From Phycisphaerae bacterium (GTDB taxonomy: Bacteria; Planctomycetota; Phycisphaerae; Phycisphaerales; UBA1924): 46,228 bases of DNA. The position numbers were made by a program, and so were the translations under genes. The notes under the pieces were generated by a model. The model worked only from the letters and a program-made list of their open reading frames with translations, made no database searches and had not been told where the DNA came from. Shown in pieces: positions 31,642-38,615 of this stretch (the stretch's first letter is position 1; each line of letters starts with the position of its first letter). The stretch is taken from NCBI GenBank assembly GCA_016795005.1, contig JAEUIV010000162.1, forward strand, positions 1-46,228, given 5' to 3'.

Positions 31642-31706
31642 ACCGCCCGGGCGTCAGCGTTCGCTCATCGGATTGACCAGCGGTGCAGGCAACCCATCGG
31701 GGTCAA

Positions 31707-34400
31707 ATGACCGATAAGTACGTCATGCGCTGGATTGCGGCGGCTGTCGGTGCGTTCACGGTGCTCGGCCTGGGGTGGTGGTCGTCCGCGCAGCCGGCCC
31801 GGCCGAGCGCCGCGCAGCGCATCGTGAAGACGTGGGACTTTGACGATCCCCTGTCCCGTGTCGAGCCGGTGCCGATCGGGTGGTTCCGGGCGCAGGACAA
31901 TCCGCCGGAGCGTGAGCGTCCTGGTTTTCCGGCATGGAATGTTCCCGGGTTGAGCGGCGAATCGCCCCGGTCCGGGCCTCGGTGCGTGGTGCTTCCCACC
32001 AAGGGGGGCAACACGGCGTTGCGGCTTTCCGCCGGGGCGGTGCCGGTGCTGCCGGACGCGGACTACATGGTCAGCGCGATGGTGAGGACCGATGGCCTGG
32101 GGCATGCGAAGGCCTGCGTCTCGGCGTGGCTGCTCGACGAGGATCTCCAGCCCGTCGGGCGCGCCCCGTCGCGGAGCGAACTATTGAACACCGGCGGGGA
32201 GTGGAGTGAACTGGTGGTCCGCACCCGGGGCGAGTCGCGGGCGGCGTGGCTCCAGATCGAGTTGCTCCTGCTCCAGCCGCGCGAGTTTGAGGCGGCGCGG
32301 AGCGTACACCAGGTCTGGCCGGAGGATTTTTCGGGGGCGGCGTACTTTGATGATTTGGTGGTGTCGCAGGTGCCCCGGGTGGAGTTGATCCCGAGTTCGC
32401 CCGCGGGTGTGTTCATCGGCGACGAGAAGCCGGAACTCCTCATGATGGTGCGCGACCTCACCGGCGAGCCGTTGTCGATGGAGCTGACGGTGTTCGATCT
32501 TGATGGGAAGATCGTGGAGCGAGAGCGCATGCCCGTGCCGGAGGGCGGGCGCGTCACTCCATGGCGACCGCGGCTCGACCGCTTCGGGTGGTACAGCACC
32601 CGCATGGAAGTCTCGTCGTCGGGCACCGTGGTCGGCCGCCGGCGCGTGGACCTGGTCTGGTCGCCCGACGGCCGAGTGCCCGACGGCGGGGCGAGGCGAT
32701 CGTTCGGCGTGATCGCGGAGGGAGTGAGCGCGGAGCAACGCGCGGGGCTTGGCGACCTGTTGCCGCGGATCCTGTCCGGGGCGGTGAACCTCTCGGTTTT
32801 CACCCCCGACCGGATCGATGACGCGCCGGGTCAGGGGCTTGAGGAGTTGTGGGGTGACGCGGAGCGGCTGCTCTCGCAGGGCGTGGATATCACCTTCGTG
32901 CTGACGAACCTGCCACGCAGATTGACGCACGAACTTCGCATCGACCCGGACAATCCCATCCCGATGCTGCTGGCGGCGAACGATCCGTGGGTGCCGTACC
33001 TCTCGAAGACGCTGAATGTTTTCGGCGAACGTGTGCGCCGCTGGCAGTTGGGTCCGACGGGGAGCGAGTCGGCGATCGGTCGTCCGGCGCTCAAGTCGGA
33101 CCTTGACGCGATCCGTCGGAAACTCCGGACGCAGATTCCGAGGCCGGTGCTCGTGCTTCCCTGGAACCTGAGTTATTCGTCTGACGAGGCGGGTGTTTCG
33201 GCGGATTCGATCATGCTGACGTGGCCGATCGGGGTGCCTGCCGACGCGATCGCGGGGGGCTACCGCGCTGCCTCCGAGGAGTTCGAAGGTCTTGATCGAA
33301 CGCTGCACATCGAGTTGCCGGACCAGGCGGTCTTCGGCGGTCGCGCCGCGGCGATTGAGCTGGCGCGTCGGGCCACCACGGCGTGGGCCGCCGGGGTGCG
33401 CCGCATGAGCATCGATCATTCTTGGCGCGTGTTCCCGGAGGCGGACGAGCGGCTCCAGCCGACGCCCGAAGCGGCGGTCTGGCGGACGATGTGCTCGGTG
33501 CTGTCTGAATCGACAGTTGTGGGGATGCTTCCGGTGGCGGATGGGGTGAGCGTGTATTTGGTCGAAGGCGCCGGGGGCGGGGCGCTCATCGGCTGGAACG
33601 ACGGGGCCGACCCGGAGGATGCCGTGATCCGCGGCTGGCTCGGGGAAGGGCGTGTGTCGGCGGTTGATCCCTTCGGGAACCGCAGGGATGTTCCGCGTGA
33701 TTCGTTCGGCTCGCACGGGGTACAACTCGAAGAGATGCCCACGATCGTCACGGGGGTCGATGTGCCGTTGGCGCGGTTTCGCGCGGCGGTGCGCGTTGAT
33801 CCCCCGTTCCTCGCGGCTCGGGCCGAGCGGCACGAGGTGGAGGTCGTGATCGAGAACCCCTGGCCGGTCGGGATCACGGGTCGGCTGCGCCTCGCGGAGC
33901 CGGTCGAATGGACGATCTCTCCCCGGGTGATCCCGTTCGTTCTTTCACCCGGAGAGACGGCGCGGGTACGGGTGGAAATTGCCTTCGCGCCGGGCCAGGA
34001 AGCGGGTCGTCAGCGGCTCATCGCGGAGGTTGATCTGTCGGCCGAGCGTCGCTATCCGGTGATGCGCTGGCCCCTGGCGCTCGACCTTGGATTGCCGACG
34101 GTTGAGATGTCGCCCAGTTACCGCGTCGAGCCTTCGCCCTCGGGGGAAGGGTCGGACCTTGTCGTTTCGATGCTCATCACGAACTCGGGCGATTCTCCGC
34201 TGACGGTCGAGGCCTTCGCCCAGGCGCCGGGGTATCGTGCGTTTGAGGCGCCGGTGAGCGGGCTGGCGGCGGGTGGCTCGGTGACTCGGCGCTTCCGATT
34301 CGAGGGCGGAGGCGAGCAACTCAAGGGTCGTTCGGTGCGCGTGGGGCTGAAGGAAACCAGCGGGACCGGGCGGCTGAATCGGACGCTGCATATCGAGTGA
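31707..34400 (+). CDS. large exported protein of unknown function
   Basis: An 897-residue protein with an N-terminal hydrophobic segment (about residues 7-25, WIAAAVGAFTVLGLGWW) that should direct export or anchor it. A carbohydrate-binding-like beta domain (about 40-220), a central alpha/beta region that could be a TIM barrel (about 330-620), and a C-terminal Ig-like beta sandwich (about 700-800) follow. These domain guesses rest on strand rhythm and motifs such as VEVVIENPWPVGITG only; I do not recognise a family. It starts 65 bp after the aspartate kinase gene and may be outside that operon. No clear Shine-Dalgarno. Its stop is 2 bp from the convergent SpoIID gene. Confidence 0.7.
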   Translation: MTDKYVMRWIAAAVGAFTVLGLGWWSSAQPARPSAAQRIVKTWDFDDPLSRVEPVPIGWFRAQDNPPERERPGFPAWNVPGLSGESPRSGPRCVVLPTKGGNTALRLSAGAVPVLPDADYMVSAMVRTDGLGHAKACVSAWLLDEDLQPVGRAPSRSELLNTGGEWSELVVRTRGESRAAWLQIELLLLQPREFEAARSVHQVWPEDFSGAAYFDDLVVSQVPRVELIPSSPAGVFIGDEKPELLMMVRDLTGEPLSMELTVFDLDGKIVERERMPVPEGGRVTPWRPRLDRFGWYSTRMEVSSSGTVVGRRRVDLVWSPDGRVPDGGARRSFGVIAEGVSAEQRAGLGDLLPRILSGAVNLSVFTPDRIDDAPGQGLEELWGDAERLLSQGVDITFVLTNLPRRLTHELRIDPDNPIPMLLAANDPWVPYLSKTLNVFGERVRRWQLGPTGSESAIGRPALKSDLDAIRRKLRTQIPRPVLVLPWNLSYSSDEAGVSADSIMLTWPIGVPADAIAGGYRAASEEFEGLDRTLHIELPDQAVFGGRAAAIELARRATTAWAAGVRRMSIDHSWRVFPEADERLQPTPEAAVWRTMCSVLSESTVVGMLPVADGVSVYLVEGAGGGALIGWNDGADPEDAVIRGWLGEGRVSAVDPFGNRRDVPRDSFGSHGVQLEEMPTIVTGVDVPLARFRAAVRVDPPFLAARAERHEVEVVIENPWPVGITGRLRLAEPVEWTISPRVIPFVLSPGETARVRVEIAFAPGQEAGRQRLIAEVDLSAERRYPVMRWPLALDLGLPTVEMSPSYRVEPSPSGEGSDLVVSMLITNSGDSPLTVEAFAQAPGYRAFEAPVSGLAAGGSVTRRFRFEGGGEQLKGRSVRVGLKETSGTGRLNRTLHIE

Positions 34401-34402
34401 GT

Positions 34403-35872
34403 TCAGTACGCCTTCATCAGCGTCGCGCCGGGGTAGTAGTGAAGCACGATCTGCTCCGCGGTCGCTCCCGCGCGGGACATTCCCTCGGCTCCGTACTGGC
34501 ACAGGCCGACGCCGTGACCGAAGCCCCGCCCCGTGATGATGACGGAGGCTCCCTGGACCGCGAACTCGGCGTCCCCGCTGAGTACACGAGTCTGCGCGGT
34601 GACCGGCGGTTGGCCGCTGGTTCCGATCCAGTTGCACCCGGTCCGGAGTTGTTCGGCGGAGAGCGCGAACCACTTGCCGTCCGCGTCAAAGATTCGGTAG
34701 TTCGTCGGGCGGCCTTCGGCGGTCTTAGTGGTTGGCTCCACCCGCGTGATCGATCTCAGCCCGCGCACGGCCAGCCCTTGATCGCGGCCGAACGCCGACA
34801 GTCGCTTGGAGAGTTCGTCGCGCGTGCGCGTCACGGTCCACCGAGTCCGCGGTGAGAAGGAGCAAGCGGTGTCCGGTCCTTGCGTTCCCTGGATGGGACC
34901 GTCGAGGTTGAACTCGAAGCCCTTGGTTGTCGGCCAGACATCCTTCGCGGCGGCGGGCCTCCCGCCGCAGGTGCTGGAGTAGTAGGCGCGGAGGAGGCGG
35001 CCTTCGGTCATGAGGACGAGGCCGCGTGTCTCGGCAGTGGCGCGGTTGGCGACCGCGTGATCGACCGCGCCGCCGTAGACCTGGTCGAGTTGCGAACTTT
35101 CGAGGTCGTACGGCTCGTTGTTCCGCGTGCTGCGCTCGCGCTCGTGCATGGCGTAGGTACGCGCGGCGATCGCCTGCGCCTTGAACGCATTGAGCGACCA
35201 GTTGGGCAGGAGTTCGCGGCTGATGACGCCCGGCAGGTAGGACTCGATTCCGATGTGCTCGATCAGGTCGAAGGGGAGCACGGGTGAGACACGCTCGGGC
35301 GACGGCGGCGCGCCGGTCGTGCCGAAGGCGGGGGGTGGAGCCGCGGGAGGCGCCGGTCGGTCTGACTTGGGTCGCAGAGTGAACTCGCCCGGATAGGGCG
35401 CGTCGTTAATGCGGATGTGCGCGCCCGACTTGTCGGCGGCGACCTTGAGCACCAGCGGCGGCGCGCCGATCGCGGGATTGGCGAAGGCGACGGGGGCGCC
35501 CGAACCGTCGCGGAGCAGCCACCCCGTTTCGAGGCGCATGACCTTGATCGGGGTGGTGATGGACTTGGCTCCGCTCGGGCGATCGTCCGGGGCGATGGTG
35601 ATCGATCTCGGCCCGGAGAGCACGACCTCGCGCACGTCGCTGAGGAGTCGGACTCGGAGGATCGGTTCGCGCTGTTCCGCCGGACGTGTCGCGGTTCCGG
35701 GCGGTGAGTCGGTTCGCGTCGGGCGCAGCGCGGGCGAGTTGGTGGACGAACTGGTACACGAGCCGACGCCGATCGAGGTCAGCATCGCGAACAGGATGAT
35801 CGCGGCGGCGGCCGGGCTGTCGGCGACTTCGAGCCAACGAGTCGGGATGATCCAGTCCTTCTTCCTCACACC
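34403..35872 (-). CDS. SpoIID/LytB-domain lipoprotein (peptidoglycan hydrolase)
   Basis: A 489-residue exported protein. A hydrophobic signal leads to VGSC, a plausible lipobox, followed by a Ser/Pro/Thr-rich linker. The SpoIID domain spans about residues 200-489: IESYLPGVISRELLPNW (the Glu in SREL corresponds to the SpoIID catalytic Glu), NAFKAQAIAARTYA, YYSSTCGG, then GRGFGHGVGLCQYGAEGM. SpoIID cleaves denuded glycan strands as a lytic transglycosylase. The start is uncertain; I chose GTG 35872, and an ATG at 35929 would lengthen the N-terminus by 19 residues. It converges with the large exported protein gene. Confidence 0.88.
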   Translation of the reverse strand, partial: GVRKKDWIIPTRWLEVADSPAAAAIILFAMLTSIGVGSCTSSSTNSPALRPTRTDSPPGTATRPAEQREPILRVRLLSDVREVVLSGPRSITIAPDDRPSGAKSITTPIKVMRLETGWLLRDGSGAPVAFANPAIGAPPLVLKVAADKSGAHIRINDAPYPGEFTLRPKSDRPAPPAAPPPAFGTTGAPPSPERVSPVLPFDLIEHIGIESYLPGVISRELLPNWSLNAFKAQAIAARTYAMHERERSTRNNEPYDLESSQLDQVYGGAVDHAVANRATAETRGLVLMTEGRLLRAYYSSTCGGRPAAAKDVWPTTKGFEFNLDGPIQGTQGPDTACSFSPRTRWTVTRTRDELSKRLSAFGRDQGLAVRGLRSITRVEPTTKTAEGRPTNYRIFDADGKWFALSAEQLRTGCNWIGTSGQPPVTAQTRVLSGDAEFAVQGASVIITGRGFGHGVGLCQYGAEGMSRAGATAEQIVLHYYPGATLMKAY

Positions 35873-35943
35873 ATGATGATCGGCGCGGTGAGGCGGAAAT
35901 GTCCAGCGTGAAATCGCCGAGATCGGCAATAACCCGCGGGCGG

Positions 35944-36882
35944 TCAGAACTCGAGCTTCCGGAGTTTCAGCCCGTGCTCCTGGAGCCTGATCTTCACTTC
36001 ATCGAGCGACGTGGCGCCGAAGTTCTTGACGCCCATGAGTTCCGCCTCGGTGCGGGCGGCGAGGTCTCCGAGCGTCTGGATGCCCAGGAGTTGCAGGGCC
36101 TTTCGCGCGCGGACCGAGAGTTTGAGGTCGCCGACCGGCTTGCTGAGGGCCGCTTCGCCGCCGCTGCCTCGGAGCGAATCGAAAACTTCCTTGCGGATGC
36201 GGCGGTGGGCATCGTCCAGCCCCTGTCCGAGGCGAAGCCCCTTGGCGGTGAGCATGTTCTTGATCTCGATGAGCGATGCCTCCCCGAAGTTCTTGTAGGC
36301 CATGAGTTCCGCTTCGGTGATGCGGAGCAGGTCGCCCAGCGAGCGGATATTCATCTTTTTGAGGCAGTTGCGCGCGCGAACGGAGAGTTCGAAGTCGGTG
36401 ACGGGGGTGTCCAGCAGCGCGTTGCGCTTGGCGAGGTCACGGTCGTGCTCCTCGTCGAGGTGCATCTCGCGCGAGCCGGTGACATCCTTCATGTACATCC
36501 GGGCGCGCGGGTGGTTCGGGTCCGTATCGAGGACCTGGCGCAGACACTTTTCGGCGCGCGGGAAGTCTCCGTTGTCCTCGTACATGACGGCGAGGTTGAT
36601 GAGCGCATTGACGGGTGCGGGTGAGCGCTCGACGCAGCGCTCATAGAGGCTCATCGCCTCGTGCTCTTCCCCGACGAGGTCGAGCGCGTAGGCGAGGTAG
36701 AACATGGCGTCGGGATTCGAGGGGTCGGCGGCGACCGCCTTGCGCATCTCCGAGAACATGAGTTCCTTGTTCCCCGCGACGCGCGCCTTTTCCGCGGCGT
36801 CGAGGTGGGCGGTGCAGGCCCGGGGATCGCCGCTGACGGCTTCACCCGCGCCGATGATGATGTCCATCGGATTGGTCGGCAT
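35944..36882 (-). CDS. TPR protein with two tandem RNA polymerase alpha-CTD domains
   Basis: A 312-residue soluble protein. TPR-like helices fill about residues 35-150. Two modules (162-220 and 251-310) clearly match the RNA polymerase alpha C-terminal domain: DFELSVRARNCLKKMNIR and DLKLSVRARKALQLLGIQ, each followed by NFG-x-x-SL and EIK or EVK. By alignment to E. coli alpha, Arg265 is kept in both copies and Asn268 only in the first. Lys298 is lost in both (Ala202, Thr291). It may bind DNA or transcription factors; the role is unknown. It is separate from rpoA itself. CAGGAG precedes the ATG at 36882. Confidence 0.92.
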   Translation of the reverse strand: MPTNPMDIIIGAGEAVSGDPRACTAHLDAAEKARVAGNKELMFSEMRKAVAADPSNPDAMFYLAYALDLVGEEHEAMSLYERCVERSPAPVNALINLAVMYEDNGDFPRAEKCLRQVLDTDPNHPRARMYMKDVTGSREMHLDEEHDRDLAKRNALLDTPVTDFELSVRARNCLKKMNIRSLGDLLRITEAELMAYKNFGEASLIEIKNMLTAKGLRLGQGLDDAHRRIRKEVFDSLRGSGGEAALSKPVGDLKLSVRARKALQLLGIQTLGDLAARTEAELMGVKNFGATSLDEVKIRLQEHGLKLRKLEF

Positions 36883-36961: not shown

Positions 36962-38572
36962 TCAACGCGCCGCGGCGTCGCCCGGATCCATCGACGGCGA
37001 CCCGTCCAAAACAGGAACATCGAGCGCGGGCGCCATGGAGACTCCCGCCGGGCCGATGTCTCCAGCGAGCACGGGTTGGCCGCCTTCCGACGCCTCGGAG
37101 GAGGACGTTCCCAGAACTTTCATCGACTTCCACCTGCCGGAACGGAAGCGCCAGAAGAAGAAGATCGAGAGCGCGATGATGTAGAGACTCGCGGCGGCCC
37201 ACGGCCCGAAACTGCTCATCCATGGCAGGTAGTTCACGGCGATCCATCCGCCCCCGACGATGAATCCCCACGAGAAGAGGACGGTCGCCACCCCGGGCCA
37301 GACGGTGTCGCCCGCGCCGCGGAGTGCGCCGGAGACGGTGATCGCCATGCCGTCAAAGAGTTGGAAAGTTGCGGCCATGACGAGCATCCACCGCGCGAGG
37401 TAGACGATGCGGTCGGCCTGCGCCGGCGGGACGCCCTCGGGCATGAAGACCCGCGCCATCGTCGGCCCGAACAGCACGAAGCCGAGCGCGCACAGCCCCA
37501 TGTAGGTCATGGTGAACTTGACGGCGAGCCATGTCCGTGATTCCGCGAGGTCGGCTCGCCCCGCGCCCATGCACTTGCCGACCATCGCGGTGGCGGCGAT
37601 CGAGATCCCCACCGCGGGCATGAACGAGAGCATGAGGTACTGGTGAACGATCCAGCCGGCCGGATTGTGAGTGGCGACCGCGCTCCCCTCGTCGAATGAA
37701 GCGACGAATCCTCCCATGAAGATCCACCAGCAGACCATCTCGTTTCCGAACATCAGTCCGCCGGGCCAGCCGAGTTTCAGGAGGTCGCGGATCGGTTCCC
37801 ACGCGGGTTTCCATGATGAGCGCGTCTGGTACAGGCGGTGGTACTTGCTGGAGAGGAAGAGGGAGAGCGGGATGATGCACTCGACGGCGGCTCCGACCAC
37901 GGTGCCGATGGCGGTGCCGCGCATCGCCATCCGGGCCATTCCTTCCGCGCCGAGTTCCGGGAAGAGGTAGGCCCACTTGATGAGCGCGTAGGAAACGACC
38001 AGGTTGACCGCGTTTCCCGAGAGGGTGCTGATCATGACCACCCAGGGTCGGTGCATGCCGTAGAAGTAGTGGCCGAGCGATCGTGCGGAGAGCGTCAGGA
38101 TGAGGCCGAGGAGAAGTGTCCGGCCGTAGATCGTTTCCATCGCGGCGACGTGGTTCGAAACGTCCGGCACGCCCGCGGTCGAACGCATCGCGTGGAACAC
38201 CTGCGGGAAGAAGACGGCGTAGGGGATCAGAACGAGGCACCAGACGACCAGGCACATCCACATGCCCGCCCAGGCGTACTTGGGTCCATTTTCCGGCTTC
38301 CCGGCGCCGAGGTTCTGGCTGACGTAGGTGTTGATGACGCCGAGAATCCCCATCATGACCGAGGCGGGCACCCACGAGGCGATGCCGCCGTTGCCGGCCG
38401 CGGCGAGGGCTTCCGGGCCGATGAGGCGCGCGGTCAGGAGGCGGTCAACAAACTGCATGAGCGAAAAGGAGACCATGGAGACGACCGCCGGGAGCGCGAT
38501 CTTCAGCATCTCGCGCAACGCCGAGCCTTCATCGGTGGGGATCGCCTGGATGTTGGACGGTGTTTCGGGCAT
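36962..38572 (-). CDS. MATE-family multidrug/cation efflux transporter
   Basis: A 536-residue inner-membrane transporter with about 12 hydrophobic helices. ALREMLKIALPAVVSMVSFS with the following QFVDRLLTA is the typical MATE start, and ALRGAGDTVWPGVATVLFSW is the matching motif in the second half. It should exchange sodium or protons for cationic drugs or metabolites; the substrate is unknown. The C-terminal 45 residues are polar and proline/serine-rich, beyond the family core. I chose ATG 38572 over a GTG at 38611. It ends 79 bp upstream of the TPR/alpha-CTD gene on the same strand. Confidence 0.93.
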   Translation of the reverse strand: MPETPSNIQAIPTDEGSALREMLKIALPAVVSMVSFSLMQFVDRLLTARLIGPEALAAAGNGGIASWVPASVMMGILGVINTYVSQNLGAGKPENGPKYAWAGMWMCLVVWCLVLIPYAVFFPQVFHAMRSTAGVPDVSNHVAAMETIYGRTLLLGLILTLSARSLGHYFYGMHRPWVVMISTLSGNAVNLVVSYALIKWAYLFPELGAEGMARMAMRGTAIGTVVGAAVECIIPLSLFLSSKYHRLYQTRSSWKPAWEPIRDLLKLGWPGGLMFGNEMVCWWIFMGGFVASFDEGSAVATHNPAGWIVHQYLMLSFMPAVGISIAATAMVGKCMGAGRADLAESRTWLAVKFTMTYMGLCALGFVLFGPTMARVFMPEGVPPAQADRIVYLARWMLVMAATFQLFDGMAITVSGALRGAGDTVWPGVATVLFSWGFIVGGGWIAVNYLPWMSSFGPWAAASLYIIALSIFFFWRFRSGRWKSMKVLGTSSSEASEGGQPVLAGDIGPAGVSMAPALDVPVLDGSPSMDPGDAAAR

Positions 38573-38615
38573 GGCGTGCTTTCGGTCGGGCGCGAAGTCT
38601 AACGCCACCACCCAC

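Follow-up and report, generated by a model that had tools for sequence, protein, structure and literature searches.

The window, a stretch of 46,228 nucleotides, encodes a protein in which two alpha-CTD modules follow a TPR region on a single chain (Table 1). Named relatives place the source of the stretch in Phycisphaerales, Planctomycetota. The gene begins with an ATG that carries AGGAG just 5' of it, and a scan for promoters and terminators gave nothing useful above shuffled sequences. The true start of the downstream SpoIID-domain protein is probably internal to the frame listed. The upstream MatE gene is a neighbor in close relatives only (synteny cluster c15, 5 loci). A plus-strand frame of 905 aa (31683-34400) encodes an apparently secreted protein with no Pfam match at 1e-5.

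Table 1. Features of the locus, with positions in the window and the basis of each assignment
Feature	Position	Strand	Basis
TPR - alpha-CTD1 - alpha-CTD2 protein (P0001)	35944..36882	-	312 aa, ORF including stop
TPR region, ~residues 21-141	36460..36822	-	Pfam TPR models, model helices, conservation by TPR position
alpha-CTD1, residues 152-212	36247..36429	-	PF03118 75.7 bits; gapless alignment to E. coli alpha-CTD structures
Variable linker joining alpha-CTD1 to alpha-CTD2	36154..36246	-	Phylum-wide comparison
alpha-CTD2, ~residues 244-302	35977..36153	-	PF03118 66.2 bits
SpoIID-domain protein, directly downstream	34403..35929	-	PF08486 1.3e-18; synteny
MatE-family efflux protein, directly upstream	36962..38611	-	PF01554 6.6e-26

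Domain assignment and predicted structure

The Pfam family PF03118 (RNA_pol_A_CTD) matches the whole protein in two stretches with 136 bits (E=3.6e-40), and each module singly exceeds the curated cut-off of 23.8 bits. N-terminal of the modules, TPR_17, TPR_14, TPR_19 and other TPR models score over their cut-offs; the region consists of three TPRs and a capping helix. The generic helix-hairpin-helix model HHH_5 stays below its cut-off (23.2 vs 27 bits), PF03118 being far stronger. In a sequence search of the PDB, CTD1 matches E. coli alpha-CTD structures with an E-value of ~4e-14. The original prediction of two complete alpha-CTDs behind a TPR region, outside RNA polymerase, is thus borne out. 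A profile search had been named beforehand as a possible refutation and returned the alpha-CTD family; the predicted structure, rather than an unrelated helix-hairpin-helix fold, has the alpha-CTD helix register in both modules.

The AlphaFold2 model (m24e697f8c1d5), based on 76 aligned homologues, has a mean pLDDT of 93 and a pTM of 0.62, values at which the domains are predicted confidently and their mutual placement is uncertain. The four-helix alpha-CTD arrangement is predicted with high pLDDT in both modules. The predicted helices of CTD1 (168-176, 182-186, 190-195 and 201-213) and of CTD2 (257-265, 271-275, 279-283 and 290-302) map to residues 264-272, 278-282, 286-291 and 297-309 of E. 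coli alpha. A whole-chain Foldseek search against the PDB has TPR structures among the matches listed, with a TMt of about 0.85; it speaks for the TPR part and is neutral on the CTD fold.

No alpha-NTD family is found among the Pfam matches listed for the protein, and the rpoA model TIGR02027 reaches 123.5 bits against a cut-off of 227.8, on the CTD part only. A normal rpoA with a single CTD is located on another contig of the same genome. The protein is therefore not an RpoA, and the missing alpha-NTD precludes a role as a subunit of the polymerase core. Since each domain is already annotated by Pfam, what is new is not the fold but the architecture, which is conserved and universal. No description of an architecture combining TPRs with two alpha-CTDs was found in the open-access literature searched.

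Distribution across Planctomycetota

All genomes searched for the protein belong to Planctomycetota, and 292 of the 294 contain a match at 1e-5. RpoA alone matches the query at ~1e-10 to 1e-15, and strong matches were therefore counted separately, by eye; E-values below 1e-25 occur in all but about 17 of the 294 genomes, those 17 being mostly incomplete assemblies. The protein is present in 50/50 searched genomes that are at least 95% complete, and is essentially universal in the phylum. Full-length homologues share 47-67% identity phylum-wide, far beyond chance, and the 80 best matches in the genome-contig search are all from planctomycetes.

A PF03118 family search of the 50 genomes at least 95% complete and of the source genome revealed that a typical genome harbors three CTDs: rpoA, a frame of ~340 codons, accounts for one, and a single frame of ~310-500 codons contains the other two. 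Some genomes show two CTDs owing to drift of CTD2, and a few have extra copies. Two CTDs lie in a single frame, near the C-terminus, in 77/78 fetched loci representing dozens of families, with a linker of median 26 aa (range 18-45). The open frame before CTD1 has a median of 313 residues, reflecting a longer N-terminal TPR array in most of the phylum, and the model of a long-type representative consists of helical pairs throughout its N-terminal half. The array is shortened in the Phycisphaerales families, including the present protein (177 residues before CTD1).

A mobile or phage origin was rejected, as coverage of the protein reaches 80% in none of the plasmid and phage records and viral contigs match the CTD only. 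The protein is best explained as a core protein that Planctomycetota inherit vertically.

Contact residues, module divergence and the TPR groove

Contact residues were counted in 78 proteins of this architecture and in 26 planctomycete RpoA, using E. coli numbering. The individual residues are as the original prediction had them: Arg265 is present in both copies (R169 and R258), Asn268 in the first only (N172, replaced by K261 in CTD2), and position 298 is Ala in CTD1 and Thr in CTD2. Across the phylum R265 is invariant in both modules (78/78 each) and in all RpoA compared. N268 occurs in 75/78 CTD1, 3/78 CTD2 and 26/26 RpoA; its place in CTD2 is taken by Lys or Arg in 69/78 (Lys 45, Arg 24). 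The loss of Lys298 had been taken to indicate that DNA is bound weakly. That proposal is rejected: Thr298 is found in 70/78 of each module, in the RpoA of the source organism and in 26/26 planctomycete RpoA (rpoA loci L001 and L114-L143), so the loss is a trait of the phylum and uninformative for this protein.

The remaining positions indicate how far each module has kept the alpha-CTD pattern. An Arg or Lys has been added at 267 in 78/78 CTD1 and 70/78 CTD2, where RpoA has mostly Ser. E302 is kept in 77/78 CTD1 and 78/78 CTD2, G296 in 78/78 and 73/78, and S299 in both. CTD1 retains the DNA set of R265, N268, C269, G296, S299 and E302; C269 is often lost in CTD2. In E. coli alpha-CTD the acidic pair D259/E261 contacts sigma, and CTD1 carries D/E259 in 78/78 and D/E261 in 73/78, together with the T/S285-E286-x-E/D288 segment. 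Position 297 of CTD1, on the DNA-facing side, is acidic (E in 66 and D in 7 of 78), which could weaken DNA contact and, as far as sequence indicates, counts against a plain UP-element-binding copy.

The modules differ in charge and in rate of change. Mean net charge is +2.2 for CTD2 vs +0.7 for CTD1. The charge of the DNA face, a rough estimate over a self-chosen residue set, comes to +0.9 in CTD1 and +1.9 in CTD2, compared with -0.2 in planctomycete RpoA and +3 in E. coli. Between-genome identity over the same 14 genomes, whose pairs are non-independent, is 0.65 for CTD1, 0.48 for CTD2 and 0.61 for RpoA-CTD. In a tree of 61-residue cores, CTD1, CTD2 and RpoA-CTD form three unmixed groups with low to moderate support; the tandem is accordingly older than the radiation of Planctomycetota.

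The TPR region is conserved on its concave face, at F61, D68, N96, E102, D103, R126 and D133, with F61, N96, E102, D103, R126 and D133 at 91-100%. In the two TPRs adjoining CTD1, concave positions score 0.66 against 0.43 for other non-signature positions (P=0.004). Such conservation points to a constant partner, and the groove likely holds a constant ligand.

Proposed role and relation to known systems

When transcription is activated in bacteria, the alpha-CTD is the module that docks and reads DNA, and RNA polymerase presents a pair of alpha-CTDs to upstream promoter DNA. A chain with two alpha-CTDs separated by 18-45 residues mimics that pair, and a transcription co-factor is thus the simplest reading. 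We estimate a probability of about 0.5 that the protein is a non-polymerase, transcription-associated DNA-binding adaptor. It would work in trans, with the C-terminal pair binding DNA in the minor groove, in a UP-element-like manner, through Arg265 and neighboring basic residues. Through D259/E261, CTD1 may in addition contact region 4 of sigma, and the concave TPR groove would hold a constant partner protein. The co-factor could bring this partner to promoters, or compete with or assist RNA polymerase there.

The gene neighborhood suggests a different role. The genes that recur beside this one are ruvA, spoIID and tgt rather than rpo or sigma genes. In counts where loci of the same family are non-independent and gene calls mechanical, ruvA is the commonest neighbor, following immediately on the same strand in 36/79 loci of many families (in a few with ruvC between), and spoIID recurs in 18/79, adjoining the gene in Phycisphaerales as it does here. 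Presumed Brocadiae loci have the Pfam-checked order TPR-two-CTD gene, (ruvC), ruvA, ruvB, queH, spoIID, tgt, yajC, secDF. Recombination proteins, too, can make use of alpha-CTD-like (helix-hairpin-helix) domains. The protein might accordingly be a recombination or replication adaptor, whose CTD pair binds DNA or junctions and whose TPR groove serves to recruit a repair protein, RuvA or some other; descent from the alpha-CTD would then be evolutionary history only. We consider this unlikely. The same cluster includes the unrelated housekeeping genes tgt, yajC, secDF and spoIID, and the linkage may therefore mean co-expression only. Linkage to ruvA is lost in Phycisphaerales, including this locus, and a search of the source genome (an 87% complete assembly) found neither a RuvA_N match nor a strong RuvB. 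Missing contigs probably account for these absences; the complete relative G095 has RuvB. Moreover, CTD1 retains N268, C269, D259 and E261, which are specific to RpoA function. In other bacteria the YebC gene stands before ruvCAB; replacement of YebC by the present protein was considered and rejected, since YebC is encoded elsewhere in 15/15 genomes tested.

Two further readings stay within transcription. One, rather doubtful, makes the protein a general transcription factor specific to the phylum, whose paired CTDs read upstream promoter DNA for RNA polymerase, a role set beside the less basic DNA face of the planctomycete polymerase alpha-CTD. A decoy is rather improbable too: CTDs that do not bind DNA would block the surfaces by which activators or sigma bind alpha-CTDs, and so damp or redirect activation of RNA polymerase. 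The sigma-contact pair, the 285-288 segment and acidic 297 of CTD1 are consistent with it, but the invariant R265 and the basic gains at 267 in both modules and at 268 in CTD2 suggest nucleic-acid contact.

The idea that the modules have diverged in function fared unevenly. The divergence itself stands, CTD2 being the faster evolving and having lost N268 and often C269, but a split into a CTD1 that binds DNA weakly and a CTD2 that binds proteins is quite improbable, given that CTD2 is the more basic and keeps R265 and E302 throughout, and that CTD1 keeps both the DNA set and the sigma-contact pair.

To our knowledge, the alpha-CTD normally occurs on RNA polymerase only. That a whole phylum keeps a separate two-CTD scaffold protein, with CTD1 about as conserved as the copy on the polymerase, suggests that gene expression or DNA maintenance in Planctomycetota has a core component that has gone unrecognized. 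Transposon mutagenesis works in the planctomycete Planctopirus limnophila, for which a genome-wide essentiality map is published (PMC10632474); the orthologue of the present protein should be among the genes covered.

The closest known relative of the modules is the RpoA CTD (PF03118, E. coli 250-329). The predicted fold, the helix register and R265, G296, S299 and E302 are common to both modules, and N268, C269, D259 and E261 to CTD1. Unlike RpoA, the protein lacks an alpha-NTD, places two CTDs C-terminal to TPRs in a single chain, and has R267 added and, in CTD2, N268 changed to K/R. The protein and planctomycete RpoA have Thr298 in common, whereas E. coli has Lys298. In the TPR part, the protein superposes on the bacterial scaffolds MamA and NlpI and on designed TPRs; MamA and NlpI have no alpha-CTDs.

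Precedent for an alpha-CTD-like domain outside RNA polymerase is provided by the BREX kinase PglW (PMC12839542). The PglW model NF033442 gives a local match of 36 bits against a cut-off of 990, on the CTD part of the protein only. PglW is a defense kinase, whereas no kinase domain is found among the Pfam matches listed for the present protein and its locus is without wHTH or BREX neighbors. Alpha-CTD matches in long frames of 1423 and 822 aa (G121:C4:1479137-1479304 and G019:C19:17212-17379) are possibly PglW-like BREX kinases. Streptomyces plasmids, the source of most of the plasmid matches (H1-H19), have frames annotated as RNA polymerase alpha that match the CTD region of the query only.

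Single-domain alpha-CTD proteins have PF03118 without the rest of RpoA. In planctomycetes they are short (frames of 109-155 aa) and occur beside rpoA and the TPR protein (G121:C4:337088-337279, G167:C1:4088706-4088888 and G205:C14:61784-61975). Viral contigs encode small proteins whose single alpha-CTD comes without an alpha-NTD (L225:3773-4204 and L232:4004-4483, matching PF03118 at 8e-19 and 6e-13, and other IMG/VR loci among L226-L239), which are candidate phage transcription modulators. Such proteins, with one CTD and no TPR, are scattered in their distribution, whereas the protein with TPRs and two CTDs is essentially universal in Planctomycetota.
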